Below are positions 4,425 through 60,322 of a stretch of 64,000 nt of DNA, piece after piece. Origin of the DNA: Bemisia tabaci. Lineage: Eukaryota; Arthropoda; Insecta; Hemiptera; Aleyrodidae. The stretch covers positions 4,402,001 through 4,466,000 of the forward strand of contig NC_092801.1 in the NCBI RefSeq assembly GCF_918797505.1, in the 5' to 3' direction. Position 1 is the stretch's first letter. Every line of letters begins with the position of its first letter. The notes beneath the pieces are model-generated. The model worked only from the letters and a program-made list of their open reading frames with translations, searched no databases and was not told the DNA's origin. The position numbers were made by a program, and so were the translations under genes.

Positions 4425-5428
4425 TCCTCCGATTCCCTCATGCGGCCGGAACCGATTTCCGATTACCTCCCGGCTTTGAAGTAAATTGAAAATATGTGGC
4501 AACGTCGCAACAATTGATCAAGTAGTAAGACGAAATAATCAAGATCCAAAATAAACTCACCATTCCCGGATACACCTGATACCGCACTATGTGGCTTAGA
4601 GGAGGAGTAGAAATGTGCGTTTATGCGGCAATTCAGATAACGCTGATACAATGCACCTAGAGACTGGACTTAGTGCAGCGAAGCTGGACACTGCACTGCA
4701 CCGCAATGTGTTTACCCTCCCAAATCAGTTTAGTGTACCCGCGCGCACCGTCTCACGCGTCCCGCGAAAATGGCATCGGGTTTTACAAAAATAAAAGTGA
4801 GCGTGATAACGATTTGTTCGTAATACAAAATATAAAGTTTTCTTTTCATAAAGTGTACGTGTACGTTTTTTTACTTTTATGATTTCTAGACTTTTCGAGA
4901 TTTATGATCCTCATAGATTTTTCTTTCAATGCTTGAAACCTTAAGTGATTTCCTATTTCTACGTGACTTTTATTGATTATGTCAATTTCTGAGTTCTGGT
5001 GTTTAAACTCTGGTTTTTAGTTACCGTCTCGGCTGGATATATCTATATTGCACAGTTTTCTGAACTACTGAATTTAAGTCGAGTGTTTAATCGATTATAA
5101 TAATAATAGAACTCAGAGTTTGTATATTTGATCTCTTTATTTTAATTTATGTTGTTTATTAATATTTTAGTTTGGTTCCTTATATTTCTCACTTGTTCTT
5201 CACATTTTGTGTTTTCTGTTAGCTTGGTTGTCCTTTTGGTTGGCCTATTTAGTTTTGGGTTGAAAAAAAAAAAAAAAAACTCAAAAGTGATTTGTACCAG
5301 TTAACAAGTGTAAGAGTTTTATTAACTAATGCTGCTGAGACTGAAGTGTTAGACAAAAACATTAGTGTGCGAGCATCCAATAGACAGCGACGGAAATCGG
5401 TTCCGGCCGCATGAGGGAATCGGGCGCC
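4425..5428. repeat. inverted repeat pair beside the Penelope-like element
   Basis: CGATTCCCTCATGCGGCCGG at about 4434-4453 recurs as its complement at about 5396-5420, roughly 950 bp away. The right arm falls in the downstream reading frame of the GIY-YIG fragment. The intervening sequence is AT-rich with no recognised gene. Confidence 0.5.
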
Positions 5429-5975
5429 CCATTCAGAGTGTACGTGCGTTAGCGACTTTTCTCTGAATGGGATCGGAGGGGCTATCAGTGCTGCCACCTC
5501 ACTCTCTTGTTGGTTATTGAGCAGGTTGTCACCTTTCTGGGACTCAATGTAAAATTTCTCATAGAGATTCATTCTCTTTCCTTTGGCGCCTTTTTTCCTT
5601 ACTTGTACTTCCGTGGCTTCCGGGTCATGTTTTACGCTTATTAAATGATCCACCAACGACGATTGGCCCGCTTTTTGAAGACGGGCACAGGCTAGGGGTT
5701 CTTTAACCCTGGTCGCAATTTTTCTTCCTGTTTGTCCCACGTACGTCAAGCCACATTTGCAATTTATTTGGTAAACACCGCTGCAATCCATTGTGTCCTT
5801 CTTTTGATTTTTGGTGTTAATAAGGACCCTACCCAGATTGGGTTTGTTGCTAAAGGTAATTTTATGCTTGCTCCCCTCTTGCACCGTTTTTTGAATTTCT
5901 TTTTCTGAATATGAGGAGAGGTCTTATGGGTTTTAATATATATCCTTATAGGCTGGGTGGGGACGGATTCATATT
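5249..5975 (-). pseudogene. Penelope-like element: GIY-YIG endonuclease part
   Basis: The minus-strand ORF (5249-5884) has a GIY-YIG nuclease block: CSGVYQINCKCGLTYVGQTG, with the GVY and YVG halves and a following Arg (R in GRKIATRVKE). Just downstream is a SLVDH...H-type His pair, as in Penelope-like retroelements. Reading back across 5885-5975, the frame contains PSL-stop-GYI...KPI, which looks like the 'P-x-x-Y-G-x-x-K-x-H-K' entrance of the reverse transcriptase, joined almost directly to the spacer before the nuclease. The catalytic core of the reverse transcriptase is therefore missing. An A-run lies at about 5262-5279. Confidence 0.75.
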
Positions 5976-39450: not shown

Positions 39451-42400
39451 GAATCTACTTTACACAGGCAAAAGTTTGCAATAGACTAATTAGACGCATA
39501 TAAAGAAAAAGGCACTATATCCACTTTCACAAACTCCCTCAGGTCCATAAGAATACACGCATGCCAGAACTCATGTCAAAATGATATACTTCCTTCTGAT
39601 TTGAACGCGTCCGGTTTGAAGTGCCACCGGAACCGCTCGGGAACACAGCTTAAACTGTTTACCTGGGGTTTAAAAACCGTTTTCTTCAAGTCAACGACGA
39701 GCCTCATAAAGCAGTGTAAACTTTCACGTTACATCCTCCACAGAGCGCTTACTTTGAAGCACAGTATACTTGTATACTGGAATGTAACATTTAAAAGCTG
39801 GAGAGTAATTTAGACTGACTGCGTTTGTTCCGGGAAGTATTTCAACCCGTGCAAGCGGCATAGCTTGAATTTAAGGCTCAGAAAAGGAAGGATGAGAAAG
39901 TTGAGGTTGATGAAATGTTTGAACCTTAATTGCGGTTCTGAAAATTAAATAAACCGCAGGAATATTTGAGTTTCAAAATCGTTTGACTTACTTTTTAACC
40001 TGCTCCCCGAGGGATGCGATAAAACCGATGGAGTTTTGCACCGTCTGGGTAACTTCCTGGATTGCCTGAAGTTTCTCTTTCAGACTTTTCTTCTCTTCCT
40101 GGCGGTAGAAGATAAAAGCACGATTAAACAAATAGTTTATCTTTTACGTATAAAAGAAAAATTTTCAATTTTTTTTTTTTTTAAGTTGAGGAAGCGTTTT
40201 CTGCGGAAGCTGTTAAGAAATTAAAATGTTAAAACATTTGATCCCTCACTTGCGACGCAGTTAAATTACGTTATTTAATTACCTCCCGAGTGAAAGAACA
40301 AATTTTTAAAAATTTTAATTTAAAATACAATGGTTCTAAGTCCTCAAAATCAAGATGAAAGAGAGTGCTTCAAATTTGTTAGTTTTTTTTTTTTTTTTTT
40401 TTTTTTTTGATCAACTGAGATCTACGTCAATCATGATGGAAATTTTCAAACTTTTGGGAGCGTTTTAATTTTCTCAAAAAACAATTCTGACACAGTGCTT
40501 AATCTAAAATGATTCAAATTTTACTGAATTCACGATCCCGACTTTATCTTTAAACATATAGTAAACTATTTAATAAAACTGTGTAGTTTTTCACGAATTG
40601 AGTACCTATCCTAAAGCGCTGCCATGCATTTGTCCCCGAAGTTTTCTCCGCAACTGTGTGGCAGTAATACGATTGTGAATGAATCGCATTCGCTGCAAAA
40701 AACTACTGAATATTATCCAGCATTTCAAACCAAGGGAGGACGTCTCAAGTACTGAACGCGTTTGGATAGATACAGAAAAATCGAAGAGTAGCAGTTACGA
40801 CATGTTTCTTTAATAAAAATTCTTCGTGGGGACGGACAAAAAGAGAAACAGATAACTGTTTCGTTTTCTTTTGGACGACGGCGCGATGTTAACGCAAGGT
40901 CTGGGTACAATTATACGTGCTCGGGGAATGTGCGTGTTGCGTGCGAAAAAAATGAAGGCGCTTCAGTTTTTCCTGTCTCCAACACGCAAAACGTGCGTAA
41001 TGGTGCCTTACGTTGGTGTTGAACGTGTCATTGGTACTGAACGCGTTTGGATAGATACAGAAAAATCGAAGAGTAGCAGTTACGACATGTTTCTTTAATA
41101 AAAATTCTTCGTGGGACGGACAAAAAGAGAAACAGATAGCTGTTTCGTTTTCTTCGGGCCACGGCGCGACGTTAACGCAAGGTCTGGATACAATTATACG
41201 TGCTCGGGGAATGTGCGTGTTGCGTGCAAAAAAAATGAAGGCGCTTCAGTTTTTCCTGTCTCCAACACGCAAACGTGCGTAATGGTGCCTTACGTTGGTG
41301 TTGAACGTGTCATTGGTACTGAACGCGTTTGGATAGATACAGAAAAATCGAAGAGTAGCAGTTCTGACACGTTTCTTAAATAAAAAATATTCTTCGTGGG
41401 GACGGACAAAAAGAGAAACAGATAGCTGTTTCGTTTTCTTCGAGGCCACGGCGCGACGTTAACGCAAGGTCTGGATACAATTATACGTGCTCGGGGAATG
41501 TGCGTGTTGCGTGCAAAAAAAATGAAGGCGCTTCAGTTTTTCCTGTCTCCAACGCGCAGACCGTGCGTAATGGTGCCTGTCAAAGGCTACAAAAAGCAAT
41601 GACGTACCCTGTCCTTGTCTTCGTCGTCATCATCATCATCACCGGTTGGCTCGTCGTCATCCTCATTGGCGGACCAATTCCCCATCAAAGTTTGCACCTG
41701 CGAATAAACCCGACTTGCGTTAAAAAGGACACTCTTTCTGAGTGGATTCCAGTGAAATCTCGCAAGTCAAATTGTCAACAGTACACCAGGAGAAATTGCA
41801 ACTAAGGCGGCTTTCCGTCTTATCCGCTTCACTGCTTAGCACGATATGACCTCGAAAATCCGGGCTAAGCTATGTGAAGTAACTTATGAGCATTGTGTCT
41901 CGAGTCGCTGACAGAGGCGGATCCAGAAATTTGGCAACACCGAATTTCCTCATTTAAACCTATGCTAAATAATCGATTCTTGACGGAGCACCTGGCCCCT
42001 CCAAGAATCGATATATTTCCGTAGGTTTAAATAATGGAGGAAATCCGGTGTTGCCAAATTGCTGGATCCGCCAATGGTCGCTGACCATGATTTTTCCCTG
42101 ATTTTCAAGAGCTCATTGTCGGATCGAAAATCAAGTTTTCCCCACTTTTCTAGGCTCTTCTTGCGAAAAGCTCATACTTTCCGGAATTCCAGACGAGAAA
42201 ATCGTACTCTTTTCATCTTTCCACCGATTCTTCTACGCACACTAGAATATTACATTCCAAATGCTTTTCGATGTTACATTATCCGACCAATAAAAGCTTC
42301 TCTTTATTCTGACGATTTGAAGATTTAAGAGGTCAAGTCAGTGTTGGCGGCCCACGTGCAATGAAATAAACCTTAAAATGGTCTGAAAGCGGAAGAACAA

Positions 42401-45400
42401 GAGAACCTGGTTCTTGGAACAGTCCTTGCTTATACCCTGATTTTCCATTCCCTCAAGATTCCCGAATTTCAAAGGCTTTTAATTTCCTAAGGAATTTCGA
42501 TTTTCCGGGGTAATATCCCGGTCCTGCACACTAGGTGCAAGTAGTTACTTTGGTAACTTTTCCAATTTGCACTTTTCCGGGAAAATTAAATTTCCGTGTT
42601 TCACTTAGCATCGCTTCGCTATAATAGCGAGCGCTCAATCATTCTTTCTCGAATCAATTCAACAAAAATCACTCTGTAAAAATAGAGCGTTCTACAGCTG
42701 ACAGGGTTAAGTTGAATGATTTCAGATAGGTTTCACTCTTAACGCGACATTCGCAAAGGTTCCTTCCCCCGTGGGTGCGGTCAAAATTATGATGATCATG
42801 GATAGTGTTTTGGTTCACTGGGAAAAAAAAAAACACATAGGATCTAGAGTCCAGACTCTTAAAAACATCGAAAAGAAAAACTACTCTTGATTCAATCAGA
42901 ATCCAGCTTAAATCAAGAACCAAGCATCTTAATTTAAGCGGAGTTCGTTTTGATTCAAGCAAAAATCCGATTGAATCAAGAGTATTTTCTCTTGTCAAAG
43001 TTTTCAAGAGTCTGGACTCTAGATCCAATGTGTTTTTTTTCCCAGTGTTCATAAACGTGTTTTCTATTCTACTAAATTCCAGCCGGAATACCGCGCCATG
43101 CAACAGGTGGCCTTGGACCTCCGAACACTTGAGCTTCGTGCAAGATCCCTCCACCCTCAAAGGAAATTACAAAGGCTGTCAAAGGAGCCCGGAGGAAGAC
43201 GAACACAGGCACTTACAACGTAGCACTTGAGGAAAACGAGGATCATCGCTAGCGGAGCCATGTAGGGTTCAAAGTAGTAGCACAGTAAAATGAACACAGT
43301 GAGAGCTATTATACTTTGTATCGTTGACTCCCACTCCAGCCATCGCCTGTGAAAAAGAAACATCAAGGATTCGTTATTCATGACGTCGTTAGTGGAATGA
43401 AGTTCTGCTTCGTTCGTAACATCGTTAAGAATCCAAGACACTTCGAAGTCTTCCGCTGGATTAAGAATCGACGACTTTCAGTATGTTGGAGTTTTTTTGC
43501 CAACGTGCGTTGAAAATTCAGCATAACGCTGAAAATCTCAAAACAGAGGGAAAAAGCTCATTCGAGCAAAGTTTTCCCTAAAAGAGACATATCTCTTTGA
43601 GTTTGTGTTTGGTGCATCACTAGTTAAGTCCGTTCAGGAGGGCAACCGCAGACGCGTTTCGGCCTTGTTGGGCCAATCCTCAGTGCAGTGCAGCCTCCTG
43701 AATTTTCGGCCACCAAGCTCTAATGAGATTTTCAGCTTTATGCTGAATTTTTAACGCACATAGCAAAAGACTCCAACACACTGTCTTACGACCCGTGCGT
43801 CCACCGCAATCGGTTTGTGCGCGACGACTTTCATTTGGACCGCGTTTAGCAGAAAGGAACCAAGCCACATCAGCTATTGCCAAATTCAACTGGGCAATTT
43901 AATGTTGTATAAGAGAACGTTTGTGCGGATTCCTTTGAAAATTTTAAGGAACTTGCTTAGTACAATGCAGAAAATTCCCTCTTTTGCACACAAATCTGCA
44001 CAACTGTTTTTTACGACAAAATTTAATTTCTCAGTTAAATTCAGCAATAGCTGGTGTGACTTGCTTCACTTCTGGTTAACGCGATCCATTTTATAACCGC
44101 GTTTAGCAGAAAGGAACCAAGCCGCATCAGCTACTGCCAAATTCAACTGGGCAATTTAATTTTTTACGAGAGAACGTTTGTGCGAATTCTATTGAAAATT
44201 TTAAGGAACTTGCCCCGTAAAATACAGAAAATTCCCTCTTATTTGCACAAAAATCCACACAACTGTTTTTTTACGAAAAAATTTAATCGCGCAAGAAACC
44301 TTGGCAATAGCTGATGTGACTTGCTTCATTTCTGGTTAACGCGATCCATTTTTAACCGCGTTTAGCAGAAAGGAACCAAGCTACATCAGCTATTGCCAAA
44401 TTCAACTGGGCAATTCAATGTTTAACAAGAGAACGTTTGTGCGGATTCCTTTGAAAAGTTTAGGGAACTTGCATTGTACAATGCAGAAAATTCCCTCTTA
44501 ATTGGACGAAAATTTACACAACTGTTTTTCTGAAAAAACATAATTGCCCAAGAAAACTTGGCGATAGCTGATGTGACTTGCTTCATTTCTGGTTAGCGCA
44601 ATCCATTTTTCAACCATAGATAGTACTTTTATTACATTCTCTACACGACAAGTGTACCGTCTGTGTGCCGTATTTTGCATGATTAGGATGACTTGTTGGA
44701 CCGGTTTGTGACGTTTTTCCTCTTATCCAGGAGAAAACTTTTTTAGGTATTTTCCATTTTTTGACCCCCTCAGGGGGAGGGAAGCGGATGGCAACTAAAA
44801 ATTTCAAATTGCCACCCCCCTCATGGCCAGGAGTGCGTGACTTTTGAATAATCCTATATATCTTAATTAGAATTAAAGTTATTGCCAGTGGTGCGTGACT
44901 TTTGAATAACCCTGTATGTATGACGCTCTTTTAATTTTGACACTATTGCAAATTATATCCGTGATGTAAAATATCGTTAAAAACTTTAAAATATGATTAT
45001 GTCTATGTTTCAAGGGTAAGCGGAAAGATTTCTAAGTGATACAAATTTTTAAACCACACCACCTGGGTTCGTTTAATTCCACCTTCATTAGAAAACGATG
45101 TTGTCCAAATGGAACTCTAGGAACGAATGAACTGTACGAAAACAGTTGCCTGGCGCGACTACCGAGGTAGATTCAAGAACACCTACATTTCCCTGTAACT
45201 TGGTAAGAGAGGGAGCGAGAGGTGTGGATGGCTTCCGAGGAAGTTCAACTCGGTGAGAGTGTTATTAAAGTTCCAGAGCGGACGGTTAAAGCTCTCCCCG
45301 CGGGGATTCACCCCGTGACGTGCTGACGTCACTGCTCCGGAGCTCTGCGCCAAAAGTTGCGGAGAAGTCGGCGCTTCCTGTACCGTTTGGCGAGACTCAT

Positions 45401-46813
45401 TCACCCTCGTGGGTAACTAAAGAGTTCCAATTGCACTTTGATCCGGATTGCACTCGAATCTATTCGCACGAAAGTAGGCGGAGCAGATTTCTGCCATCCG
45501 GAATAAAAATCTTACTTCATCATCCTTTCACTCTGGTGGGTATCTGAAGAGTTTCAATTGCATTTAAATCGGGAATGTGCTCGATGCTATTGGCACGAGT
45601 GTAAACGGAGCAGATTTCTGCCATCCAGAAAAGAAATCTTACTTCATCATTCTATCACTCTGGTGGGTATCTAAAGAGTTTCAATGGACCAGTAGACAAG
45701 GTCCGAATTGCCGCATTCTGGTACATGTTTCTGAACCTAAATTTCACGTAAAACACAGGGCGCACTGCGAAAATAACAGAAATCAACTCCTCACGAAGAT
45801 ATTTACTGATTCTTGTTGCGTGGATTCAAACCACCCGCTCATTAAAATTCAATGCTATATACGTGATTCACATCGCACGCTAGACGTCATCATAAACCTA
45901 CAAAAACCCTCAGAGACATTTTTCGGGCAAAAATTCCAGTCGAGGAAATTGACGTGTCACTTCCTTTTAATCAAGTATAAGATAGGCAAAAACCTTTGAT
46001 GAATTCCCAAGGTCCACTAAGACTAATAATCATCAAAAAGTTCCAAAAACTTACTCGAAAGGAAAAAAATAAAATGAAAAATAAATCCCTTGCCAAAAAT
46101 ATTTTAAGATACATTTTGGCGAAATTCCCTGACAATTGAGGATGTGACGGATGGTTAAGAAGGCATAATTGACAGTACTTAGAGGCAAAATTTGTCGTTC
46201 GAAATCTCAAACCCATTTTTGAAAGCAAATGAAGGTAATTTAACAAATTTTCCCTGACGTTTTAAAATTCCCGGATAGCTCCCGGTTTTCCCAGACTGTG
46301 GCATATGGCAACCCTGACGAATGTAGGTGGAGCAGATTTCTGCCATCCAGAATAGAAAATCCGCATCTCACTTCATCATTCTTTCACCCTGGTGGGTATC
46401 TAAAGAGTTTCGATTGCATTTTAATCGGGAATGCGCTCGATGCAATTCGCAGGAATGTAGACGGAGCAGATTTCTGCCATCCAAAATAAGGACGCCGGAT
46501 CTCACTTCATCGAACTTTTAATTTCCGTACCCGTTTCAATCACCTGAAGATGGGCGGCCCGCTCGAAATGGTCCTTGTGTATAAAATAAAAGTAAGTCAC
46601 ACCGGAAAAAAAAAACACATTGGATCTAGAGTCAAGACTCTTGAAAACATTGACAAGAAAAAATACTCTCGATTCAATCGGATTTTTGCTTGAATCAAAA
46701 CAAAATCCGCTTAAATTAAGAGGCTTGGTTCTTGATTTAAGGTAGATTCTGATTGAATCAAGAGTATTTTTTCTTGTCGATGTTTTAAAGAATCTGGACT
46801 CTAGATCCAATGT

Positions 46814-46849
<36 letters not shown>

Positions 46850-49800
46850 CCAGTGCATCTAAAATCGATTTTGGATTTTTACCGATGCATGCCAAAAGAC
46901 GGATTCCAGTGTCGCGCACCATAGCCCGAGTTGATTTAAGTAATTCTTATACTTGTAAATTTAATCTCATCATAGCTAATCTCTGTTACTTATAGTCCTA
47001 ATAACTCTTGTTCCTTAAATTCAATTTATCACTTTCATTGTAAGTGAAAACGTATCTGTTCTATATCAAGCGATAATAAACAAACAAAACAACAACAAAA
47101 ATCCGTTTTGGAAAAAATTTCAATTTGCATCAAGTCATGCGCCGGAAAAGGTCGCGTCCGTTTGCTCATACTTACTGGATTCATTGTAAGTGAAAACGTA
47201 CCTGTTCTATATCAAGCAATAATAAACAACAACAAAAAAAAATCCGTTTTGGAAAAAATTTCAATTTGCATCAAGTCATGCGCTGGAAAAGGTTGCGTCC
47301 GTTTGCTCATACTTACTGGATGACTTTACTAATATCGATGATCCACATGATGATGGCTTTGAGCCTCATGACGTTGCGGACGAAGACCTGTCTCTTGAAC
47401 TTGACCTCGGGGTTCATGTACTTGTCCTCCTTGGGGTTGAGGGTCCTGATGCAGGCGCGGATGGGGTTCCAGACGATGTCCATCTCGAGGAGGATCTGCG
47501 GCGAGTTCCCCTTGGCCCGCCCGTAGAGCTTCTTGTCTTTGAGCGCGTACCATCGCTTCTCCCCGTTCTTGATCCGGATCAGCGGGATCGCCACCTTCCC
47601 CAAGAACTCCACCTTGTGATCCTTGTCCTCGTCGTACACCGTCACCTCCAGCACCGAATGAATGTCTTTAACATTACTGGAAAGTAGACCAGTAAATATT
47701 CATGAATTCATTGTGAATGTATACATGCAATAATTTAAAGGCTCTAAATTTGCATTTATACAGGTGAATGATCCCTGATATCAGTGGAATATGTTTGTGC
47801 ATTATAATTTGTTAGGTTTGTGAAGACAACATCCAGCTGTGATCCATATTGTGTTGATACCGACTGTGACGGTAATGCTGAATGAATTTCATATTTATTA
47901 AATAATTCATGATAAATTGTCTTCATGGACGCGCTTCTTGTGAATCAACTAAAAACACAAGATCTGTCAAACAGCAACTCTCTACGTTCAATATTAACCG
48001 AGATATCGGCCTTTGAAAAGTCAGGTTTTTGGCATCATCCGCCTGCCATGATAACGATTCCAATGATTATCTTCATGTCTCATTCGGGGTATCTACTAAA
48101 ACAGGCTGGTCAAAAATAAGTACTCTTACGGTTCTTTTTCAGTACATTCTCAAGAAATTCAGTACCTCCTCCAACAGAAAAATTCCGTACTTTTTCAGTA
48201 TCTCCATCTGACGAAATTAGAAAAATTTCAAAAATTTGAAATTGCGACAAAAATTACGAAAAATTAAAAAAAATTCCGGACCTTTTTGCGGAATTTCCGC
48301 ACTTTTTCAGTACTTCTGGACCGTCCTTAAAAAATCAGTACTATTTCCGGACTTGTAGACACCCTGTCATTACAAGTTGGTATGATGAAGTATAGTAAAG
48401 GGAACTCATTCCCTAACAAATCCTTCCATCACCTTGTGCGCGTGTATCATGCAAATAAGCTTATTTCACTGATAAGCTGGATGCGTAGGACAAACTGAAG
48501 GGGATTATGACTAGAATTAAGTTTTTTACAGTAGATTTGAAGCGTAGAGGCTTTGGAAAATCATGACCTCAAGGAGACATTTTAAGTTTTTGGGGTTTTT
48601 CTTTCCAGGTACTGATTACAGCCGGAGCGGAGAAATCCGCTGAAAACTTTTGGATGCTACTCGTCAAGAAGACGAGCCCTACCTTTCTAGGTAAAGGCGA
48701 GGGTTTTAGTTCAAGAACGCGTGACCACTGCGGTCCTACGCCTTTTCTACCGCCTGATCTAGTCCCCCCAGGCAAACGGCGTTCACCCGTTACCCAAGCC
48801 CTTGTTGAACGGGACATCCTAGAATTCGGGTCCACCTCTTTGCACCGGCCCAAAGATGCAAATTTGGACCGCGCCATTGAGCGCACGCGTAGAGTTTTCG
48901 CTCTACCCAATAAGTTGAGACCATATACGCTTGAGCAAGTCTTAGAGACTGATTTAGACATTTGGAACAAATCGCCAGGTCTGCCTTGGTCAAATTTTCG
49001 TGGCCCAGATAATAAACCGATATTCAAACGAAAGCGTCGGTAGTTCAGAATGACGCTGCTCTCCATTATATCAAGAGACAGATTTCGAAAGTAAAGCATG
49101 GCGAAGCTTACGTCCCACCTGATTTTCAGGCCTCTGTTAGAGCACACATCTGCGAAGAAACGGATACGAAGGTCCGTGCAGTGTGGGGCTACCCACTCGA
49201 AGTAATACTGATGGAGTCTCAATTCGCTGTACCTTGGATTCGCGCATATCAGCGACTCCCTGCTCATTCCACGCCTATTGCTTACGGCCTTGAAACAGCC
49301 ACAGGCGGAGCGATGAAGGTTGTTAGACGCATGCAAAAACAAGGAAAATGGTATTACAGCCTTGACTTTAGACGGTTTGATAAGACCGTACCAGCTTGGC
49401 TCATTGAGTTAGCCTACGATATTCTTCTTGAAAATATTGATATCTCTACTTATGATGACGGCTCAATTCCAAATGCTCAGCGTTTATTGAATATGTTTAA
49501 TTTTACAAAATCGTATATGATCAACACACCTATAAGGACAGCGACTGGGAAACGCTTTCGCAAATCAAATGGCGTAGCAAGTGGGACTTACTTCACAAAG
49601 CTTATAGGAAGCATTTGTAACACAATCTTAATAACGTGGATGATCATAACCTTGACTGGTCATGAACCGGAGGACCTAGTTGTCCTAGGAGACGATTCTT
49701 TGTTTCCCTTATCTAAGAAACTTGATGGTCAGTTCTGCTTCGCGCGCCGTCGGGGAAGGTACCTACACGCGTATCTCGTGGATCTCATGATTACGTGATT

Positions 49801-52800
49801 CGGCTTTGCGGTCTTTTTTCGCGTGATTCGTTTTTACGATTTTTGTCTTGCGATTATTGTTGGTTGATTCTTGTTCTAGTTTCTAGTGATCTTGTAGTGT
49901 AATTGATCTTGGATTGTGGAAATTGGTTTTGTGGAAATTGGATTACGTGATTACGTGATTCTGCTTTGCGGTCTTTGTTCACGTGATTCGTTTTTGCCTT
50001 GCGATTTTTGTTGGTTGATTCATGTTTTTTTTGTTCGTAAGAGATTGTAGACGTAGAGATTTATACGTAATTCTATTTATTTATTTATTTATTATTATTA
50101 TCATGTGACGTGTCGCGCCGCGATAAAATCTTCATAGTGTTTCAAGAAGACCTGAAGATGGATTAATTTCCGAAAAGATCATAGTCTAATCACTCATCAA
50201 CTTAGCTCATCGGGATAAAAAGGTAAATATTTCCGTTTATTATTTATGTTTGTTTCTTGACAAGAAAGGTCGCTGAAAATAAAATTTGAAAAAAACTTTC
50301 ACAACTTTTTCTTATTGTGTGTAATGGACCACTAGACAAGGTACGAATTTAAGTGATCAGATACATGTTTCTTGACCAGAATTTCACGTAGAACACGATT
50401 CACACAACAAAAATTACTGAAAACAACTCCTAACGAAGATATTAACGTTTTTATTTCACGCTGGTTACGAGGAATTTGAACTGCCCGCTCACAAGAAACT
50501 CAAAGCTCTACGTGAGTCAAATCGCGCACTACAACGGTTTCAGCAAGCTTCTCAATCGAGCAATGCTCATTTCCCACCATGTGTTTTTCAAACTATAAGT
50601 AATTTGCTATAGCTGAGCCAAAGCGTCAAGATTGAGGTTGCCAGATTTTTATATCGCAGAGACGTTCATGATAACGTTTAGCGCGCGATGTGAATCACGT
50701 AGAGCATTGAGTTTTCATGAGCGGGTGGTTTCAATTCACGCATCAAGAATCATTAAATATCTTCGGAAGGAGTCAATTTCGGTAATTTTTGTTGTGCGTA
50801 TCGTGTTCTACGTGAAATTTTAGTTACGAAACATGTATCAGAATGCTGGAATTCGTACCTTGTCTAGTGGTCCATTACTTCTAGCCAAAATGAAGTCTTT
50901 CGCAAAGTATAAGGACGTCTCTCTCCCGAGGTGTCGAGCTTGGGGATACTTACAAGGTGAATATCTTCTGCCACGAGGGTGTGAGCGTTTTGTACTCGGT
51001 CTGCGTTTGGAGGCGGGCGTTGACCAACTCGAGGACGCAGAACGGATCCGATTTCCCGCCGAGGTCGGCCGCGGCCAGGCCTTGCGCCTTGTACACCCGC
51101 ACCGTCAGGTGCCCCACGTCTTTCAGGTTGTGGAAAGTCCTCTGCAACGCCTGTTTTCGTCCGCGGAAAGATGCGAAAAATAGAGAGCACAGAAAAAAAT
51201 TAGAGAGCCTCACTGGATTTACGGAGCTCGACATTTAAATCTGACGCATGATTACACTTATGAAACATTATTTGGATTGCATTTTGCAAAAAGGAACCAC
51301 TAGCATTGCAATGATGCTAGGATCGTGCAACTTCATCCTTTGCAATAAAATTGCGGAAATCGTGAAAAACTATGAAATTTAGATGGTAATTTTTGTCTTA
51401 TATTTACAGTTTTTAGCAAGTAAAATAGTAACTATTAATGGATAATCGGGTTTTTCCTCCAAGACAAAAGAAGCTGCACAACCTTAGCAACATTGCAACG
51501 CTAGTGGTTCCTTTTTGCAAAATGCAATCCATTTGTAGAGCGACAGATTTTGACCTTCGGTTAAAACTTGACGGAGACTCTCAAAGTGAGATTCCTCTGC
51601 AACGCCTGTTCGCGTCCGCTTTAATCGGAGTTGTGAAGTACAACTATCGAACAACCTATCAAAGTACCCTAAAATACCAGAAAATCAAACCTCTTTGTCA
51701 CATGATTGTACTTTATTTATACACTTTTCCCCAAGTTATGCACAATGTACATATTCTATTTCTTACAATGTAAATATATGACGTGTACCTAGCCTTAAAA
51801 GGCTCCTTGTGAAGTACACCTATTGAACAACCTATCAAAGTACCCTAAAATACTAGTAAATCAAACCTTTTTTGTTACATGCTTGTGCTTTATTTATACA
51901 CATTTCAATTTCAATTTCAGGTAGAGACGTGTGACCCGAAAAGAACTTCGGCAATTAAGCATCAAGTTTCTGGATTCCCCATCCGAAAACTCCAGCGATT
52001 CATATGATCTGAACTTTGGGTCTCATGGACGAAACCTTTCTCCCTGATCATCATAATCTCGATGGGGAGGGGCCTGTTTCAACAAGCTTCACGACAATTT
52101 GACGTATTTCTGGACGCCGTCCAAAACTTCTGAGCGTTTAGATAGTACTTGTATTTAGTATTGTTTCCCAAGTTGGTCTTTTGTTTTCCTTATTTGATGG
52201 ACCATCGATGTCAGGTTTTCCTAAGTTTGGTAAACCGATGAAATAAATGATTCTGATTATTTTCAGATATCCGATCGCCACCGTGCAAAGGCTGCCCTTC
52301 GCCTGCATTGAAGGGACTTTGCGGGACATCCTACGGGAGAGAAGGCCGCCGGTTCCGCGCAGTTTTGAGGAGATGGATATAAGTCTGGTCCAGAATGGAT
52401 TGACGGTCGACAACCGGCCATTTTACCGAGAGGTAAGTGTATTTTCTACCGATGCTCTAAAGTCAGGAAAGAAGGGAGGTAGAACTTATTATATTTTCGA
52501 AAGCTTGCGTGAATCATTCTTCTGTGAATCATGATCGTTCAGGAGGATTGAGGATTTATTTTTTCCATTCTCCCATACCGACAACGGGGTTTGAGATCAG
52601 GGAGAAAAGTTCGCATTCGATTTTAAAAAATGTGTCCATTGATAAAGACAAAAAAACATGTTTGTCCTAAGGAGCAAGTTATTGCGACATATTAACGACA
52701 TTATAACCACTTCATAAAAGGGACAGGTTGAAATCATTGTCGTAATTAATATATTTATTCTTGTTTTTTGTTTTGAAAGTTTGACGCATTTGTAAAAGCC

Positions 52801-55800: not shown

Positions 55801-58800
55801 AATTCAATAGAACAAACAATACATTGCGATACATTAAACAATAAGTGCGCAACTATAACAAGGCTATACTCAAAGTACGTTAAAAAAATTTAGTCTGATC
55901 CGGCAGAATGATTGGGTATCCCAATATGCCGGGCAGAATAATGTTGTTTTTTCTTTTACGCCTTCCGCTTTGAGATATCGACGGTGAAAGTCGGCAATCA
56001 CATAACTCGGTTTGCGACGTCGCAGACTTCCTGTCATATTTTATTTTTTAAATGGAAAACTACTCAACGGCGATTCTTTAAAACTGTCATGATTTTTCTT
56101 CTCAATGCGAAGAAAATTCTGCAAAAACTTCAAGAAATAATATCAATTTGTTCTCCTTTAAAAAATGACGTAGAGGCGGAGATTTTCAGACACCGCAAAC
56201 GAGTTATGTGATTGCCGACTTTCACCGTCGATATATATCTTATCTTAACAGCCATAATCATCCTATTGATTCTAACTATTTGCTTCAGTAGCTTCATTTT
56301 GTCAAACTGTAATGGTGAGGTTACTGAGATAACTTGAAAGTTATACCACCACACCCTCACTACATTTATCCTCTACAATATTTCACATGGAACAAAGAGG
56401 AATAAATAAAATTATCCGCAAGTCCAAAAATGCTTCTTCTCCAGTTAGTCATAGCATTACGGCAAACCGTACCGGTGAGGTAAATCTTGTGAAGGCATCT
56501 AAACAGATGCTATCAGATGCTGGTGAAATTTTAAAGCAAAAAAACAAAAAAAATCTTGAGGTGAACTGTTTACCCTCCTCTATCTTTAAAGTTAACACAT
56601 AGGTCTTTATCACTTAATTTATTAATTTTTTCTTCACACATTGCAGGCCTGTCGTCAATCTTAGGTCATTCAGCTATATGGAAATCCACTGATCAAAGTT
56701 TGATCTAAAGGCGCGGTAAAACCTCGAGGGTTCGTTGGACGGAAAATCACTTACTTACTTTCCTATGAAATCATCTTTGGAGCGGTCCTTGTCCCAAACG
56801 GTGACTTCTAGTTCTTGAGATTGGTCGTCGTAGAGGTGCAAATCGAACTGCTCCAACCACGTTGGGTTCAATGATTTGTAGATGACTTTGCTTTTGTACT
56901 TTTCCTGCCCGAGCCTGGGAAAATAAATTGCGAGTCGTTACACGATATCCGTTCTGGTCGCGGATACCTACGTGACGGGCAAAAGCTGAACTGCGGGCCG
57001 ATTATTGAAATTTATAGACAAAGCTATAAAAAAAGAAGACATAAGAAGTATAGGGCGATCCTATTGGTTGAAATGGGTGGTTTTTATAGACTAAGGGGGT
57101 AAATGATGGACTAACTGTCGGGTCTCTCGTGGGTTGCCGTTAGTTAGTTTACTTAGTCTATTTCTTACCTCCTTTGTCCATTGCAACCACCCGCTTCCAC
57201 CAATAGGATCCCTCCATATCCTTTTTGTCTTCTTTGTCTATTGCTTTGTCTATCTATTTCAAAAATCAGCTCGCTGAGGTTTATTACGACAAGCCAATGG
57301 TTTCAAGAAAGAAGAGTTAGGGGGGGGGGGGGGGGGCTGAATGGGAAATTCGTGTTTTCATAAAAAAAAAACGCAATTAAAGTTTTCACTCTGATGCCAT
57401 TTTTTCCTGGGCTAAAGATGCAGGTTTGACTGTAATCAACACGGAGAAAAAAAACACGGTTCTTCGACGATTACCATGGTAATAAGGTCACACGGGATTC
57501 CACGGTAGTGGAACCGTGGATTTTGGTAACAGTATTGATGAGCACAGTAGCATAACCATGCTCATAATAGCATGTCTGTGCCTACAGTAATATTACGCTG
57601 AACACGGTCATATCACCGTGCTCATCGTTACAAGCATCAAAATCCACTGTTCTACAACCGAGGAATCCCGTGTGACATTACTACCGTTGTAACGGTAGAA
57701 TAACTTGAGTTTTGTTTCTCGGTGAAGTAAGTTGGTCCATATCCTTGAGATTAAGTCGGTACCATTGAGCAATAGTAAGGCATGATCGTGCACGAGTAAA
57801 ATCTGAAATACGAAAAGTCTACTGATGCCGTATGTCCCGAGAACTACCTCCACCATAGCCTTTTTTAATGTTTCACTCTTAGGCTGAAGTTGATTTTCTG
57901 GAGAACAACTTTCAGATCGTAATATGATGCTAACTGAGGTCTTTAAGGGAAAAATATCGAGAAAATTCAGAAAAGAAATTCAATGTTCAAATTATACATA
58001 TTATTGAAGAGGTACGAAGTTAATCAAATTCAACGTTCTCTGGAAAAACGGCCTAAGTCGATTCAGGCCATTTTCCCTCCATACACCTCAATGGTTTGCT
58101 GAAACAAACCTGTACATTGATATTTCAAAAATGGGTCACTAAACCCTTAGTTTTTGATTGATATTGTGAGAGTACCAAGTCGGAAGATTGCGTGACGATA
58201 TTTTCCTAAATTTTGAGGCCAAAATCCTGGACAAGATCGCTGTTAAAAATCTTACGGACTCGAAGGAATTTCAAACGCACCGGAATGACGGAAAAATGAT
58301 GGATGATGTATTAGGGCAGTCGAATCATTATCTCCTCTCAATTTTCACTGAAGTTCGTCAAAATAAAATGTACTTCGATATAAGATTGCTGCTATATTGT
58401 TCACCACAGATAACTCGAATGAGATCCGATTCTTAGATTCTAAAGATATAACTTCCACTTTCGTATTTATATAAAGGCCGAAAGTATAATTGCTACGTTT
58501 TCCTTAGGGATAAAACCCTGAAGTTTTCGACTAATTATCAAGGGCTGTACAAAGTAATTCCAAGTGAAAGAAGAGTGAAAATTTACATGGATGCGGAATG
58601 GTTCATAGAAGACGGAATAACTGAAATTGGGGTCTCTTCTGAATAGCAGGATAATTTCGAATAATTCATCAGAAGTGTTATAAACCCGGGAGCGGAATTC
58701 TATTGGTCCACTTACAGTAATTCAAGAAAAGCTTCAGTTTTTTTTGGCTAGTTTGTGCAAAAATTATACTTTAAACCACTGCATTTAAGAACCTTCAAGG

Positions 58801-60322
58801 AACTTGTAAAGTAGGTGTGTAGCCGAAGTGCTAAAAAAATGGGCTAGTATATGTTAGAGCACAGTGGCGAGGAGCATATTATCGATGATTCTCCATTTGA
58901 AGCTACGAAAAAGAATCGATTATTAAGGCGTTCGTTGCGAACACCTTGGTTATCGATCCTCTTCAATAGGTTTAAGTGGCAGATCAATCGATACATCGCA
59001 AAGCACACCACGCCACTGTTGGATCAGCATGGGAGTAGCAGACCTGTCCTAGGAGTAGCTGCACTACGGCGTGAAAGGAAACAAGGACGCCACAAACTAA
59101 AACCCGTTTTCCGGGGGAAAGAGACGTCATCCTGGAGATCGACCGGGACCAAATCCCGGATTCAAACAGTGAAACTAGTTGGCTGCGAATTCAAGCCGGA
59201 ACGAAGTTGCCGATAATTTGAAAATTCTTCGGCCTAATAAAACGGGACTTAGAATTCGTTAAAAATTTTCCGGAAAAGAGAAAAAAAAGTGGTGTTTCAT
59301 AGACGTTTTGAACGATGCTGAGTAAGAAAACATCGCATAATTATTGAACGATTTTGGAGTTTGAATTTACGTTTTCTTTTAATTTTCTTTAGGACTTGGA
59401 AAAAATTCACAAGAATTTTCGTCGAAAAAGATAATGTGAAGTGGTGTTTTTTAGACGTTTTGACCGTTATGAAATGTTTGGTCAAAGCTATATACGGCAC
59501 AAAACATGGAAAAAATTCACAAGAATTTTCGTCGAAAAAGGAAAAAATATAGTGGGTGTTTCTGAGACGTTTTGAACATTATAAAACGTTTGATCAAAGC
59601 TTTACGACACATAACATGACCAAACATTGTTATCAAATGAAGCAGTGCTATGCAAGTTAAAACTTGCACATTTTTTAGCACTTTGGCTACACACCAAATT
59701 AGTTCGATTAAGTGTTACTACCAATATGTAACAAATTAATAAATTCAGGGAAGCTGAAACTTCGTGATCACGCGACCACGCTCGCGTGAAGGAGAGCTGC
59801 AGAACCTTCTTCACGGTGGTAAATTCGTAAATAAAGTGGTGTTTTTAAGACGTTTTGAACGCTATGAAATGTTCGATCAAAGCTTTACAGCACAAAACAC
59901 GACCAAACATTGTTAACAAATAAAGCAGTATTATGTAAATTAATACTTGCAAATTTTCTAGCACTTCGGCTACACACCTACCTAGCAAGTTCGATTAAGT
60001 GTTACTACCAATATGTTACAAATTAATAAATTCACGGCAGCTGAAACTTCTTGATCACGCGACCACGCTCGCGTGAAGGAGAGCTGCAGAACCTCCTTTG
60101 CGGTGGTAACTTTGTGAATCCGATCATGTGTTTCTCTCGATACATCTGACGAAAATCAATCTCACTTGCTTACCTGAATTTGACGTAAGGATCACTGTAG
60201 CCATCCAAGTCCATGGCGAGGAGGTTCTTGGCGTCGATAAGGACGATCGTAACAACTGAGCTCCATATTTGACTCTTCAGTCTTCTGTTCATGTCGGATA
60301 TCCGACTGTTTCGTTGGAAATA
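36850..60322 (-). CDS. MCTP: multiple C2 and transmembrane domain protein (MCTP), ten 3' exons
   Basis: MCTPs are endoplasmic-reticulum or vesicle membrane proteins with Ca2+-binding C2 domains. In insects and vertebrates they act in synaptic homeostasis and membrane contact. Ten minus-strand exons join with consistent phases: 60174-60322, 56759-56914, 54875-55061, 50954-51150, 47317-47676, 43217-43346, 41608-41697, 39992-40098, 37780-37987, 36850-36945. The total is 1680 nt, 559 residues plus stop. One C2 domain covers about residues 20-150 ([32 protein letters not shown]) and a second about 175-310 ([32 protein letters not shown]), both with acidic Ca2+ loops. An acidic linker (about 400-423) and two hydrophobic regions (about 360-393 and 468-500) follow, then a basic tail. 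The first C2 domain(s) and N-terminus must lie in exons not found, probably right of the window. Introns are up to ~4 kb and transposon-rich, and coding exons are G+C-richer than their surroundings. Confidence 0.95.
37420..37605. repeat. fragment of foldback family J
   Basis: CAAATCTATAGGCAAAGA and AGTTTATGTTACTTAAACC-type sequence with ACTAACTAACGGCAACCCAC resembles the right arm of 57059-57215. Confidence 0.45.
37780..37987 (-). CDS. MCTP: MCTP exon: second membrane segment
   Basis: Acceptor CGTTTCCAG, donor GTAAGTTCTTG. Encodes [20 protein letters not shown] ... [20 protein letters not shown] ... [13 protein letters not shown]. Confidence 0.95.
38100..38560. repeat. AT-rich intron segment with repeated ATCG words
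   Basis: Many near-copies of GATAAAATCG, ATCGCGATATT and CAATAAATCGACGTCG, partly self-complementary. It resembles 31800-32060 in wording. No single period is seen. Confidence 0.4.
39126..39333. mobile_element. foldback MITE in MCTP intron
   Basis: Arms of about 85 bp: TTGAATCACTAAATACAAAA ... AACTGTTTATTTCG, with complement CGAAATAAACAGTT ... GTACTTAGTGATTCAATT. No coding capacity. Confidence 0.75.
39414..39449 (+). repeat. poly-A run in MCTP intron
   Basis: About 36 bp, nearly pure A, after an AAATAAATAAAT tract. A long T-run (about 28) lies at 40381-40409. These could be processed-transcript tails, but no adjacent retroelement is recognised. Confidence 0.6.
39992..40098 (-). CDS. MCTP: MCTP exon: amphipathic linker helix
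   Basis: Acceptor TCTACCGCCAG, donor GTAAGTCAAAC. Encodes [20 protein letters not shown] and [15 protein letters not shown], the conserved helix before the second membrane segment. Confidence 0.94.
40751..41585 (+). repeat. ~285-bp tandem repeat, three units
   Basis: Units start at TACTGAACGCGTTTGGATAG at 40751, 41035 and 41318, and each contains ATGAAGGCGCTTCAG and AACGCAAGGTCTGG. Units are very similar apart from single-base indels. The third unit ends about 20 bp from MCTP exon 41608-41697. Confidence 0.85.
41608..41697 (-). CDS. MCTP: MCTP exon: acidic linker
   Basis: Acceptor TTATTCGCAG, donor GTACGTCATT. A 30-codon phase-0 exon with an Asp-rich run ([15 protein letters not shown]) encoded by a GAT/GAC repeat. 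Lies ~30 bp from a 285-bp tandem repeat. Confidence 0.93.
41912..42076. mobile_element. hAT MITE family G
   Basis: Ends CAGAGGCGGATCCAG / CTGGATCCGCCAATG, inner TTTGGCAACACCG and ATTTAAACC and their complements. Flanked by perfect GTCGCTGA duplications (41904-41911 and 42077-42084), the 8 bp expected for hAT. Confidence 0.88.
42085..42815. other. MCTP intron, no feature recognised
   Basis: Holds short TTCCGGGAAAA / GATTTTCC-type words but no clear element. Confidence 0.35.
42816..43047. mobile_element. MITE family A, copy 3
   Basis: CACTGGGAAAA ... TTTTCCCAGTG with TT on both sides (42814-42815 and 43048-43049). Full-length palindromic copy in an MCTP intron. Confidence 0.85.
43217..43346 (-). 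CDS. MCTP: MCTP exon: first membrane segment
   Basis: Acceptor CTTTTTCACAG, donor GTAAGTGCC. Encodes [20 protein letters not shown] and the following hydrophobic [20 protein letters not shown]. Confidence 0.95.
43484..43777. mobile_element. foldback family Q, copy 2
   Basis: Terminal inverted repeats TGTTGGAGTTTTTTTGCC and AGCAAAAGACTCCAACA, then AATTCAGCATAACGCTGAAA against TTTCAGCTTTATGCTGAATT. The central ~70 bp folds on the minus strand into a hammerhead-like RNA (43633-43702). Homologous to 475-747. Confidence 0.75.
43633..43702 (-). ncRNA. hammerhead-like ribozyme motif
   Basis: On the minus strand, stem I is TTCAGGAGG (43694-43702) with CCTCCTGAA (43633-43641), 9 bp, an internal loop, then CTGCA with TGCGG, 5 bp including one G-U. 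The core follows: CTGAGGA (43677-43683), stem II GGCC-CAACAA-GGCC, GAAA (43657-43660), C-GC-G, and a GTC cleavage triplet (43651-43653). All fixed positions of the type I hammerhead boxes CUGANGA, GAAA and NUH are present. The deviation is two unpaired U between CUGAGGA and stem II. Activity is not shown. Confidence 0.5.
43837..44604. mobile_element. MITE family M, three tandem copies
   Basis: Units 43837-44087, 44097-44347 and 44356-44604, each a palindrome with CCGCGTTTAGCAGAAAGGAA and its complement. They are joined by ATTTTATAA and ATTTTTAA. The whole array is flanked by ATTT (43833-43836 and 44605-44608). The internal junctions lack the GGA of the left end, so the array looks like amplification of one insertion. 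Confidence 0.85.
44609..45400. other. MCTP intron, little recognised
   Basis: AT-rich. GCCAGGAGTGCGTGACTTTTG (shortened to TGCGTGACTTTTGAATAA) occurs twice, near 44830 and 44890. Nothing else seen. Confidence 0.4.
45400..46510 (+). repeat. 127-134-bp minisatellite, at least four units, interrupted
   Basis: The word GAGCAGATTTCTGCCATCC starts at 45481, 45608, 46330 and 46464, each followed by TCACTTCATCAT-type sequence and CTGGTGGGTATCTAAAGAG. The array is split by about 650 bp (45684-46315) that begins with a half copy of foldback family I. Confidence 0.8.
45684..45905. repeat. half copy of foldback family I
   Basis: ATGGACCAGTAGACAAGGTC ... TACATGTTTCT ... ATTTCACGTAAAACACAG matches the left arm of 50324-50875. 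No second arm is found. Confidence 0.6.
46600..46855. mobile_element. MITE family A, copy 4, with long T-run
   Basis: CACCGGAAAA ... TTTTCCAGTG with CA on both sides (46598-46599 and 46856-46857). The right end contains a T-run of about 38, expanded relative to the other copies. Confidence 0.82.
47036..47330. repeat. tandem duplication spanning an MCTP splice donor
   Basis: Two ~147-bp units (about 47036-47182 and 47183-47330) share TTTGGAAAAAATTTCAATTT, CATCAAGTCATGCGC and CATACTTACTGGAT. The unit includes the CCA|GTAAGTATGAG donor of MCTP exon 47317-47676, so a second donor-like sequence lies ~147 bp inside the intron. Confidence 0.8.
47317..47676 (-). CDS. MCTP: MCTP exon: last C2 domain end and pre-membrane region
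   Basis: The largest exon, 360 nt. Acceptor ACTTTCCAG, donor CCA|GTAAGTATG. Encodes [20 protein letters not shown] ... [13 protein letters not shown] ... [12 protein letters not shown] and the helix before the first membrane segment. Confidence 0.95.
48620..49737 (+). pseudogene. endogenous partitivirus-like RNA polymerase (truncated, frameshifted)
   Basis: Two plus-strand frames encode most of an RNA-dependent RNA polymerase of the Partitiviridae type, a dsRNA-virus enzyme that copies the viral genome. Frame one (about 48620-49040, stop at 49041-49043) ends in the SPGLPW region. After a frame change near 49040 the second frame runs to about 49737 with motif A ([11 protein letters not shown]), motif B ([15 protein letters not shown]) and motif C (VLGDDSLF). 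Just after the GDD the similarity ends, and unrelated tandem sequence follows, so the thumb is missing. It lies in the MCTP intron between exons 47317-47676 and 50954-51150, in the opposite orientation to MCTP. The frameshift and truncation indicate a genomic relic, not a live virus. The presumed donor would be a partiti-like virus of the insect, its fungi or its plants. Confidence 0.85.
49787..50025 (+). repeat. two-unit ~157-bp repeat beside the viral relic
   Basis: GATTACGTGATTC, GCTTTGCGGTCTTT, CGTGATTCGTTTTT and TTTTTGTTGGTTGATTC occur at 49787-49875 and again at 49944-50025. It starts just after the point where viral similarity ends. Confidence 0.7.
50068..50101 (+). repeat. ATTT/ATT microsatellite
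   Basis: TATTTATTTATTTATTATTA-type tract in the MCTP intron. Confidence 0.75.
50152..50175 (+). other. CTGAAGA-stem-GAAA motif
   Basis: CTGAAGA, a short GGA/TCC stem, then GAAA. Part of a recurring motif series in this window; see the findings. Confidence 0.3.
50324..50875. mobile_element. foldback family I, complete copy (552 bp)
   Basis: Ends ATGGACCACTAGACAAGGTA and TACCTTGTCTAGTGGTCCAT, flanked by TA on both sides (50322-50323 and 50876-50877). Arms of about 200 bp pair further in (CATGTTTCTTGACC, TTTCACGTAGAACACGA). A TA duplication would suit a Tc1/mariner-type origin, which is inference. Confidence 0.75.
50954..51150 (-). CDS. MCTP: MCTP exon: start of the last C2 domain
   Basis: Acceptor GACGAAAACAG, donor GTAAGTATCC. 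Encodes [20 protein letters not shown] ... [11 protein letters not shown] ... [11 protein letters not shown]. High G+C relative to the intron. A short copy of its 5' end is found at 51592-51619. Confidence 0.95.
51274..51530. mobile_element. MITE family L relative (257 bp)
   Basis: Ends GGATTGCATTTTGCAAAAAG and CTTTTTGCAAAATGCAATCC, with CCACTAGCATTGCAATG-type inner arms. Flanked by ATTT (51270-51273 and 51531-51534). The centre is not palindromic. Confidence 0.78.
51592..51619 (-). repeat. partial copy of an MCTP exon start and its acceptor
   Basis: TCCTCTGCAACGCCTGTT with CGTCCGC repeats 51139-51166, the junction of MCTP exon 50954-51150 and its intron. The two copies flank the MITE at 51274-51530. 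Confidence 0.6.
51622..51905 (+). repeat. ~185-bp tandem duplication
   Basis: TTGTGAAGTACA, GAACAACCTATCAAAGTACC and CTTTATTTATACAC occur at about 51628-51725 and 51810-51905. Confidence 0.75.
52267..52432 (+). CDS. exon of unknown gene nested in an MCTP intron (opposite strand)
   Basis: Acceptor GATTATTTTCAG and donor GAG|GTAAGTG bound an open 166-nt exon: [55 protein letters not shown]. It ends in phase 0 and joins in frame to 53432. Balanced codon use and G+C content above the surroundings support a real exon. The family is not recognised. A transposon-derived gene (FLYWCH/MULE-like) is a weak guess. A possible earlier exon begins after TTTCAATTTCAG at 51921 ([15 protein letters not shown] in one frame). 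Confidence 0.45.
53432..53620 (+). CDS. terminal exon of the unknown nested gene
   Basis: After acceptor TTTGTTGCAG the phase-0 frame reads [40 protein letters not shown], then [10 protein letters not shown] and a stop at 53618-53620. A polyadenylation signal AATAAA is at 53760. Between them, at 53708-53733, lies a CTGAAGA-stem-GAAA motif. Confidence 0.45.
   Translation, partial: TISRLIDWAKRNLEPPTTFYYLANNSSKWHPKIFARLVEGTGIRIVTKKTLIHLFISACCTP
54384..54612. mobile_element. MITE family A, copy 5
   Basis: CACTTGAAAG ... TTTCCAGTG inserted in a satellite unit. The empty site CAAACTCGTGCCGTGAATCG is present at about 54743-54762. The filled site shows TG on both sides (54382-54383 and 54613-54614). 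Confidence 0.88.
54875..55061 (-). CDS. MCTP: MCTP exon: C2 domain end and linker
   Basis: Acceptor CCGTGTTCAG, donor GTAAGTCGAC. Encodes [20 protein letters not shown] and [15 protein letters not shown], then the linker ending EKEVLLERY. The phase-0 end joins [13 protein letters not shown]. Confidence 0.95.
55163..55558. mobile_element. MITE family M copy nested in hAT MITE H
   Basis: GGACCGTGTTAAAGAGACAG ... TTCTGTTGAACGCAGTCC flanked by ATTT (55159-55162 and 55559-55562). The uninterrupted H copies read GCCATTTA at this point. It is longer than other M copies because of a further insertion at about 55204-55338. Confidence 0.85.
55204..55338 (-). pseudogene. short LINE 3' fragment nested in MITE M
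   Basis: Flanked by CCACATCA on both sides. On the minus strand it reads [20 protein letters not shown], like the C-terminal 'D-x-x-x-x-x-x-D-R-x-x-W-R' of RTE-type LINE proteins, and ends in an ATGTATGT-type short tail at the low-coordinate side. Confidence 0.55.
55975..56233. mobile_element. foldback family E, copy 2
   Basis: Perfect ~42-bp ends: ATATCGACGGTGAAAGTCGG, CAATCACATAACTCG and complements. Inner arms are ACTTCCTGTCATATTTTA and similar. Confidence 0.75.
56759..56914 (-). CDS. MCTP: MCTP exon: C2 domain middle
   Basis: Acceptor TATTTTCCCAG, donor GTAAGTAAG. Encodes [20 protein letters not shown] ... [18 protein letters not shown], with the D-K-D...D second Ca2+ loop. Confidence 0.95.
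57059..57215. mobile_element. foldback family J
   Basis: GATCCTATTGGTTGAAATGG with GGTGG ... against CCACC...CCAATAGGATC. It includes GTTGCCGTTAGTTAGTTTAC. A related fragment is at about 37420-37605. Confidence 0.55.
57440..57722. mobile_element. foldback element with CACGGAGAAA ends
   Basis: CACGGAGAAAAAAAACACGG ... TTGTTTCTCGGTG. Internal arms: GTCACACGGGATTCC / GGAATCCCGTGTGAC, and AGCACGGTGATATGACCG / CACGGTCATATCACCGTGCT. Confidence 0.65.
57723..58850. other. MCTP intron, no feature recognised
   Basis: AT-rich. The ORF at 58188-58436 shows no similarity I recognise. Confidence 0.35.
58863..59019. mobile_element. hAT MITE family H, copy 3
   Basis: CAGTGGCGAGGAGC ... CACGCCACTG with GCGAACACC/GGCGTTCG centre. 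The flanks TTAGAGCA and TTGGATCA match at 6 of 8. Confidence 0.75.
59280..60115 (+). repeat. tandem repeat of ~285 bp, two full and two partial units
   Basis: The word GTGTTT..AGACGTTTTGA starts units near 59290, 59445, 59556 and 59840. The last two are long and share TTCGATTAAGTGTTACTACC, CACGCGACCACGCTCGCGTG and GGAGAGCTGCAGAACCT. Confidence 0.8.
60174..60322 (-). CDS. MCTP: MCTP exon (first in window): start of a C2 domain
   Basis: Acceptor TTTGTTGCAG, donor GTAAGCAAG. Encodes [20 protein letters not shown] and [11 protein letters not shown], the first strand and first Ca2+ loop (Asp residues in M-D-L-D-G-Y-S-D-P). Ends with two bases of the Arg codon. Confidence 0.95.

Follow-up and report, generated by a model that had tools for sequence, protein, structure and literature searches.

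A polymerase fragment inside an MCTP intron

We analysed a 64,000-nucleotide stretch of the genome of the whitefly Bemisia tabaci, hereafter the window, in which a minus-strand MCTP gene holds within one of its introns a plus-strand fragment of what is very probably a viral polymerase (RdRp) gene. The host gene is recognizable from two minus-strand frames that encode the halves of a C2 domain, read at 50950-51234 and 47313-47699. The open frame with the first half covers 50954..51234 (PF00168 profile 1-55; PDB 2ep6 residues 8-65, E=1.9e-18), and that with the second half and the sequence beyond it covers 47313..47676 (PF00168 profile 59-103; PDB 2ep6 66-133, E=4.2e-16), both being open-frame spans rather than exon spans with fixed outer ends. 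On MCTP2 (PDB 2ep6) the two exon frames abut exactly, residue 65 of the one being followed by residue 66 of the other. The intron that splits the domain (47677..50953, minus strand, 3277 bp; GTAAGTATCC ... TCTACTTTCCAG) is of the GT-AG type, and its splice sites, GTAAG...CAG, preserve the C2 reading frame. A further C2-coding stretch lies upstream at 56737..56922 (minus strand, PF00168). MCTP exons and splice sites on either side, all in one contig, flank the fragment with host DNA, as is characteristic of endogenous viral elements.

Two overlapping open frames on the plus strand, 48567-49043 and 49016-49798, carry the N-terminal and the catalytic parts of the RdRp. Combining the Pfam match described below with tblastn comparisons to viral and Bemisia proteins, we delimit the fragment, a truncated gene of an insect partiti-like virus spread over two frames, to 48654..49732 (plus strand). 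Its N-terminal part (piece 1) lies at 48654..49037, and its catalytic core (piece 2), an open frame ending past motif C, lies at 49022..49732. Piece 2, within the frame 49016-49795, matches Pfam RdRP_1 (PF00680, E=3e-32, profile 166-350 of 450). The frame of piece 1 (48567-49040) has no Pfam match up to E=1, and a sequence comparison of this piece with the PDB returned a single chain, not a polymerase, at E=0.43. It matches two B. tabaci proteins (E=1.4e-45 and 5.8e-20) and, by tblastn, the N-terminal ends of many viral RdRps, and it contains the sequence KSPGLPW at 48969-48989.

Four plus-strand motifs stand out in piece 2, which we take to be those lettered F, A, B and C. For the F-like sequence KVRAVWGYP (49169..49195), alignment A1 shows conservation of 90% or more in 8 of 9 columns. 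Motif A (49361..49393) contains D115 and D120, motif B (49580..49624) S187, G188, T192 and N200, and motif C (VLGDDSLF, 49682..49705) the residues GDDS; all of these residues, the motif A and motif C aspartates among them, are invariant in 15/15 rows of that alignment. The catalytic residues are therefore present, with motifs A, B and C in order in one open frame. An initial annotation of this DNA had described a partitivirus-like RdRp with these three motifs in order, lying antisense inside an MCTP intron. That description is upheld by the invariant key residues, by PF00680 together with significant matches to partiti-like viral RdRps, and by the single intron of a minus-strand gene that encloses the plus-strand fragment. 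Searched against the PDB, profile A1 returned 34 sequences; we take these to be picornavirus-like, calicivirus, picobirnavirus and coronavirus polymerases along with a few that we did not place, and recognized no partitivirus among them. Pattern scans of viral contigs gave 7 pattern matches with a single piece and 26 with alignment A1, none of them confirmed.

The viral gene is both degraded and partial, a further mark of an endogenous viral element. Matches of one Bemisia relative (P0042) to the two frames overlap at 49022-49037 (tblastn), which places the frame break at about that point; the initial annotation had put it near 49040, and it lies there or slightly before. It had also read a loss of similarity right after motif C, and matches to close whitefly relatives do end at 49729-49732 (tblastn). 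The breakpoint of viral similarity, beyond which the later RdRp part is missing, falls at 49733..49735, just past the end of the P0035 match at 49732. Matches of distant proteins reach 49738 at most, with the exception of P0041 (33% identity), which extends to 49771. P0035 itself continues as RdRp past 49732, and a tblastn search of the window with this protein as query (E up to 0.01) did not recover the missing 3' part. At the other end, 48654 is a candidate start codon, the 5' end being uncertain and possibly a few tens of bases earlier; firm matches start at 48675-48705, and one weak match (P0022, 27%) begins at 48624. The viral stretch within the span first given, 48620..49737, thus stands, while its start at 48620 is probably too early. 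We are highly confident that the fragment is an insect partiti-like RdRp with this anatomy, fossilized as a non-retroviral endogenous viral element, and hereafter call it the fossil.

Relatives in the whitefly genome and among viruses

We looked for relatives with searches that reach only sequences sharing short exact words, so that a living relative could be missed. Piece 2 gave significant matches to 41 of 377 scored candidates, or to 84 of 316 when longer candidates were allowed, and piece 1 to 2 of 23. The searches brought up five B. tabaci gene models as the nearest relatives, four of them close (58-94% at the amino acid level) and one distant. Piece 2 is 94% alike over 72 aa to P0035 (contig of 47.5 Mb) and 86.7% over 165 aa to P0044 (contig of 42.8 Mb). 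Piece 1 is 67% alike to P0042 over 111 aa (contig of 64.1 Mb) and 67% alike to P0043 over 63 aa (contig of 42.8 Mb). The distant model is P0026, at 42% (contig of 54.1 Mb). Like the fossil, the four close models are genomic, fragmentary and of the same RdRp family; the window's own contig may be among those that carry them. P0035 retains the RdRp part lost from the window copy, and the P0043 model joins an N-terminal RdRp piece to sequence that, as we read it, resembles a Tc1/mariner transposase end.

Beyond the whitefly, 20 of the 27 significant piece-2 rows named as virus or Riboviria carry "partiti" in their names (longer-candidate search). Members of the family Partitiviridae have segmented dsRNA genomes, one segment encoding the coat protein; at the MCTP locus there is just a fragment of the RdRp. 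The nearest named viruses, the partiti-like viruses Hubei 46, Costanza and Pennypacker, are 47-50% identical over 98% of the core. They share the RdRp motifs of the fossil but are free viruses with whole proteins of 473-479 aa, and they sit on other tree branches. Further insect gene models were matched in Chilo, Anthophora, Rhagoletis, Periplaneta and Drosophila grimshawi.

Phylogenetic placement, a check that the initial annotation had proposed, agrees with its attribution: the fossil falls among partiti-like RdRps in a tree of 115 rows and in a second, careful tree of 40 of these rows picked by hand, neither of which resolves its position inside the group. All rows came from the match lists of the searches, with no reference rows of named Partitiviridae genera, and both trees omit P0042 and P0043, as these cover mainly the N-terminal part. 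The window copy, P0035 and P0044 form a Bemisia-only clade (SH-aLRT 100 in the 115-row tree, 100/100 in the 40-row tree), with P0035 filling only 30% of the alignment columns. The stem of this clade measures 1.1 changes per site in the 115-row tree. P0026 is a second, distant partiti-like RdRp of B. tabaci on a different branch; a tree constrained to unite it with the window clade is worse by 25 log units (p-AU 0.047), the grouping having been defined only once the first tree had been seen.

Capture history and route into the genome

Between the window copy and P0044, 20 of 163 residues (ungapped) are different, and 15 of these 20 differences are conservative, where 31% would be expected from the codons (p=6e-5). 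Against P0035, 4 of 4 differences are conservative (p=0.009), and against P0042, 15 of 37 (p=0.039, a weak result); neither P0043 (7 of 21, p=0.41) nor the free virus P0046 (26 of 65, p=0.1) gives a significant proportion, and the test loses power with distance. Eight pairs of RdRp cores that are 80-91% identical served as controls, and 48-62% of their differences are conservative, a range to be read against an expectation of 31% that was computed on the window's codons and not on those of the controls. The control pairs were picked by hand from close pairs in the tree: three consist of two named viruses, one has a named virus on one side, and the other four pair unnamed proteins, encoded on contigs of about 1.4-1.5 kb, which we assumed to come from free viruses.

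The mainly conservative differences between the window copy and P0044 favour separate captures over copies of one insertion. On balance, the divergence of the whitefly loci seems to date mainly from before capture, when they were working virus genes, and they are likely to be separate captures from a related virus group or lineage of which we found no living member. The gene models were chosen by gene predictors and are therefore a sample biased to open, conserved copies, so that separate capture is something we infer rather than observe. It is unlikely that a single capture was followed by copying within the genome, leaving the close Bemisia loci as duplicates that diverged as host DNA. Such copying would account for the 94% likeness of P0035 over 72 aa and for the clade that the window copy, P0035 and P0044 share to the exclusion of all but Bemisia. 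Nor do open frames exclude drift, since 0.2-1.9 nonsense changes are expected under neutrality across the four Bemisia comparisons, and open frames alone therefore say little. The RdRp similarity of P0044 likewise stops just past motif C, but this stop could be the exon end of a gene model; because a splice donor would produce the same end, we rejected it as proof of a shared truncation. Copying fits poorly with the excess of conservative change over the neutral expectation between the window copy and P0044, which resembles that in the control pairs, and with N-terminal pieces of different loci that are only 58-74% alike. It also has to contend with the extension of P0035 beyond the window copy's breakpoint and with the separate branch of P0026, whose joint clade with the window group was just rejected in the post hoc comparison above.

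In our reading, the fossil is a partial DNA copy of a partiti-like RdRp segment that was inserted into the MCTP intron in antisense orientation and today has a broken frame and no 3' end. An RNA-virus sequence in DNA requires some reverse transcription; here a retroelement enzyme probably copied viral RNA in germ-line cells, and the host-retroelement origin proposed in the initial annotation is plausible. The flanks (48500-48700 and 49720-49800) share no word of at least 8 nt that could represent a target-site duplication, and the one 7-mer they share compares with 0.88 expected; there is no poly-A tract at the 3' junction at 49.73 kb. The locus thus bears no hallmark of a given retroelement, and such marks of LINE-type insertion could have been hidden by later decay or truncation. 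Just 3' of the fossil lies a direct repeat of two copies 81% alike (49779..50026, plus strand), which had 0 matches in a scan of genome contigs and through which the junction may be chimaeric.

Two other origins were weighed. The DNA copy could have been made by the viral polymerase itself and not by a host retroelement, which we regard as quite unlikely. A 2025 paper (PMC12027680) argues that partitivirus polymerases may reverse-transcribe, cites work on the reverse-transcriptase activity of partitivirus RdRps, and describes viral DNA in some infected fungal subcultures; that observation is a PCR result on a fungal virus, said in the same paper to need further confirmation, and nothing at the fossil locus bears on this route. 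A contaminating virus or an assembly error is very improbable: DNA assemblies are unlikely to contain a virus whose genome is RNA; the fossil is cut short and interrupted in frame, and a single intron with MCTP exons on either side surrounds it; and its kin lie on contigs of 42.8-64.1 Mb.

Other elements lie near the fossil and elsewhere in the window. The same MCTP intron holds a fold-back element at 50321..50878 with 123-nt arms 85% complementary; a related copy of this MITE-like element occurs at 45683-45897, about 5 kb off. No stop-free frame in the window is longer than one of 279 codons at 48569-49408 on the minus strand, which runs antisense to the fossil in the direction of MCTP. We rejected it as a gene, since it has no Pfam match among the minus-strand frames. 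Leucine and serine codons that give antisense stops (TTA, CTA, TCA) number 0 of 13 in the overlapped part of piece 2 versus 8 of 21 in the rest; the openness of the frame is likely due to chance. Farther away, a 224-codon frame at 5249-5923 (minus strand) has no Pfam match and resembles, as we read it, the GIY-YIG endonuclease of a Penelope-type retroelement. In the plus-strand stretch 1849-2253, PF21788 (a transposase-like GTP-binding insertion domain) matches weakly, at E=0.0028, which does not reach the curated cut-off. Tandem repeats occupy 40749-41578 (period 287), 43839-44615 (257) and 59545-60109 (283 bases), and a tRNA scan found 0.

Possible present role and wider context

The fossil most likely has no protein function at present. 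With the frame interrupted and the gene ending shortly past motif C, a working polymerase is very unlikely. Domestication, in which the host would make a protein of its own from the fossil, is extremely unlikely: the residues of motifs A to C are intact and 239 codons stay open in one frame, but against this stand the frame break, the loss of the polymerase past motif C and the orientation antisense to the host gene. The most likely fate of the sequence is that it would be spliced out with the MCTP intron and degraded.

Antisense placement in a transcription unit raises a different candidate role. MCTP is read from the minus strand and the fossil lies on the plus strand, and the MCTP pre-mRNA accordingly includes sequence complementary to the plus strand of the virus. 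The initial annotation had suggested that this could feed small-RNA defence. The fossil might be retained as a source of piRNA-like guides that act through this pre-mRNA against related viruses, which we consider improbable. Orientation and intron position fit such a role, but antisense orientation has a prior of 50%. Published whitefly data are compatible with it, 28-31-nt reads being the most abundant in B. tabaci and most whitefly piRNA-like reads mapping to non-coding DNA, introns included (PMC9962485 section 5.2; PMC6413925). MITEs are foremost among the transposons in clusters (PMC9962485 section 5.2), and a fold-back element shares the intron with the fossil.

The EVE-derived piRNA systems of Aedes and of the Diaphorina citri densovirus EVE resemble the fossil in placing viral DNA in a transcribed position; they differ in having measured small RNAs (PMC9962485). 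Evidence from two other hemipterans speaks against a defence role: section 5.2 of the same paper describes D. citri EVE piRNAs that did not target the virus with the complement, four kinds of RNA virus that yielded no viral piRNAs in D. citri, and a response of Rhodnius to persistent RNA viruses through siRNAs only (PMC9962485). The word-sharing searches with piece 2 found no living virus of the clade that could serve as a target. The fullest form of the idea, that a partiti-like lineage of the whitefly's own left fossils over several chromosomes and that the MCTP-antisense copy still yields small RNAs directed at that lineage or at viruses related to it, is a slightly longer shot again.

Fossils of this kind are already known. 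As reported in PMC12027680, 52 partitivirus RdRp-like proteins occur in cellular organisms, over half of them in insects, and these reflect the same kind of event, a partiti-like RdRp in an insect genome; the main text of that paper makes no mention of Bemisia or whitefly. B. tabaci is described as carrying other EVEs, pieces of parvovirus BtaDV NS1 and nudivirus-like pieces (PMC12297876). These are likewise viral DNA at several loci on whitefly chromosomes, but unlike the fossil they stem from DNA viruses. The 20 new viruses listed in a survey of the whitefly RNA virome belong to groups other than Partitiviridae (PMC8119434), and among the open-licence PMC matches listed, the titles and abstract openings contain no report of partiti-like fossils in B. 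tabaci. The whitefly fossil, a new member of this known kind, is of interest for its Bemisia-only clade, for which no living member is known, and for its antisense position within an intron.

Through this finding, a set of related RNA-virus fossils joins what is known of the genome of a major vector of crop viruses. Some insect partitiviruses kill males (PMC7854922; PMC10497914), and some are conditional mutualists or parasites (PMC7332103); given such effects on insect hosts, signs that the whitefly has encountered this group are useful. The antisense position of the fossil within the MCTP intron, moreover, makes the idea that EVEs feed small-RNA production directly testable.
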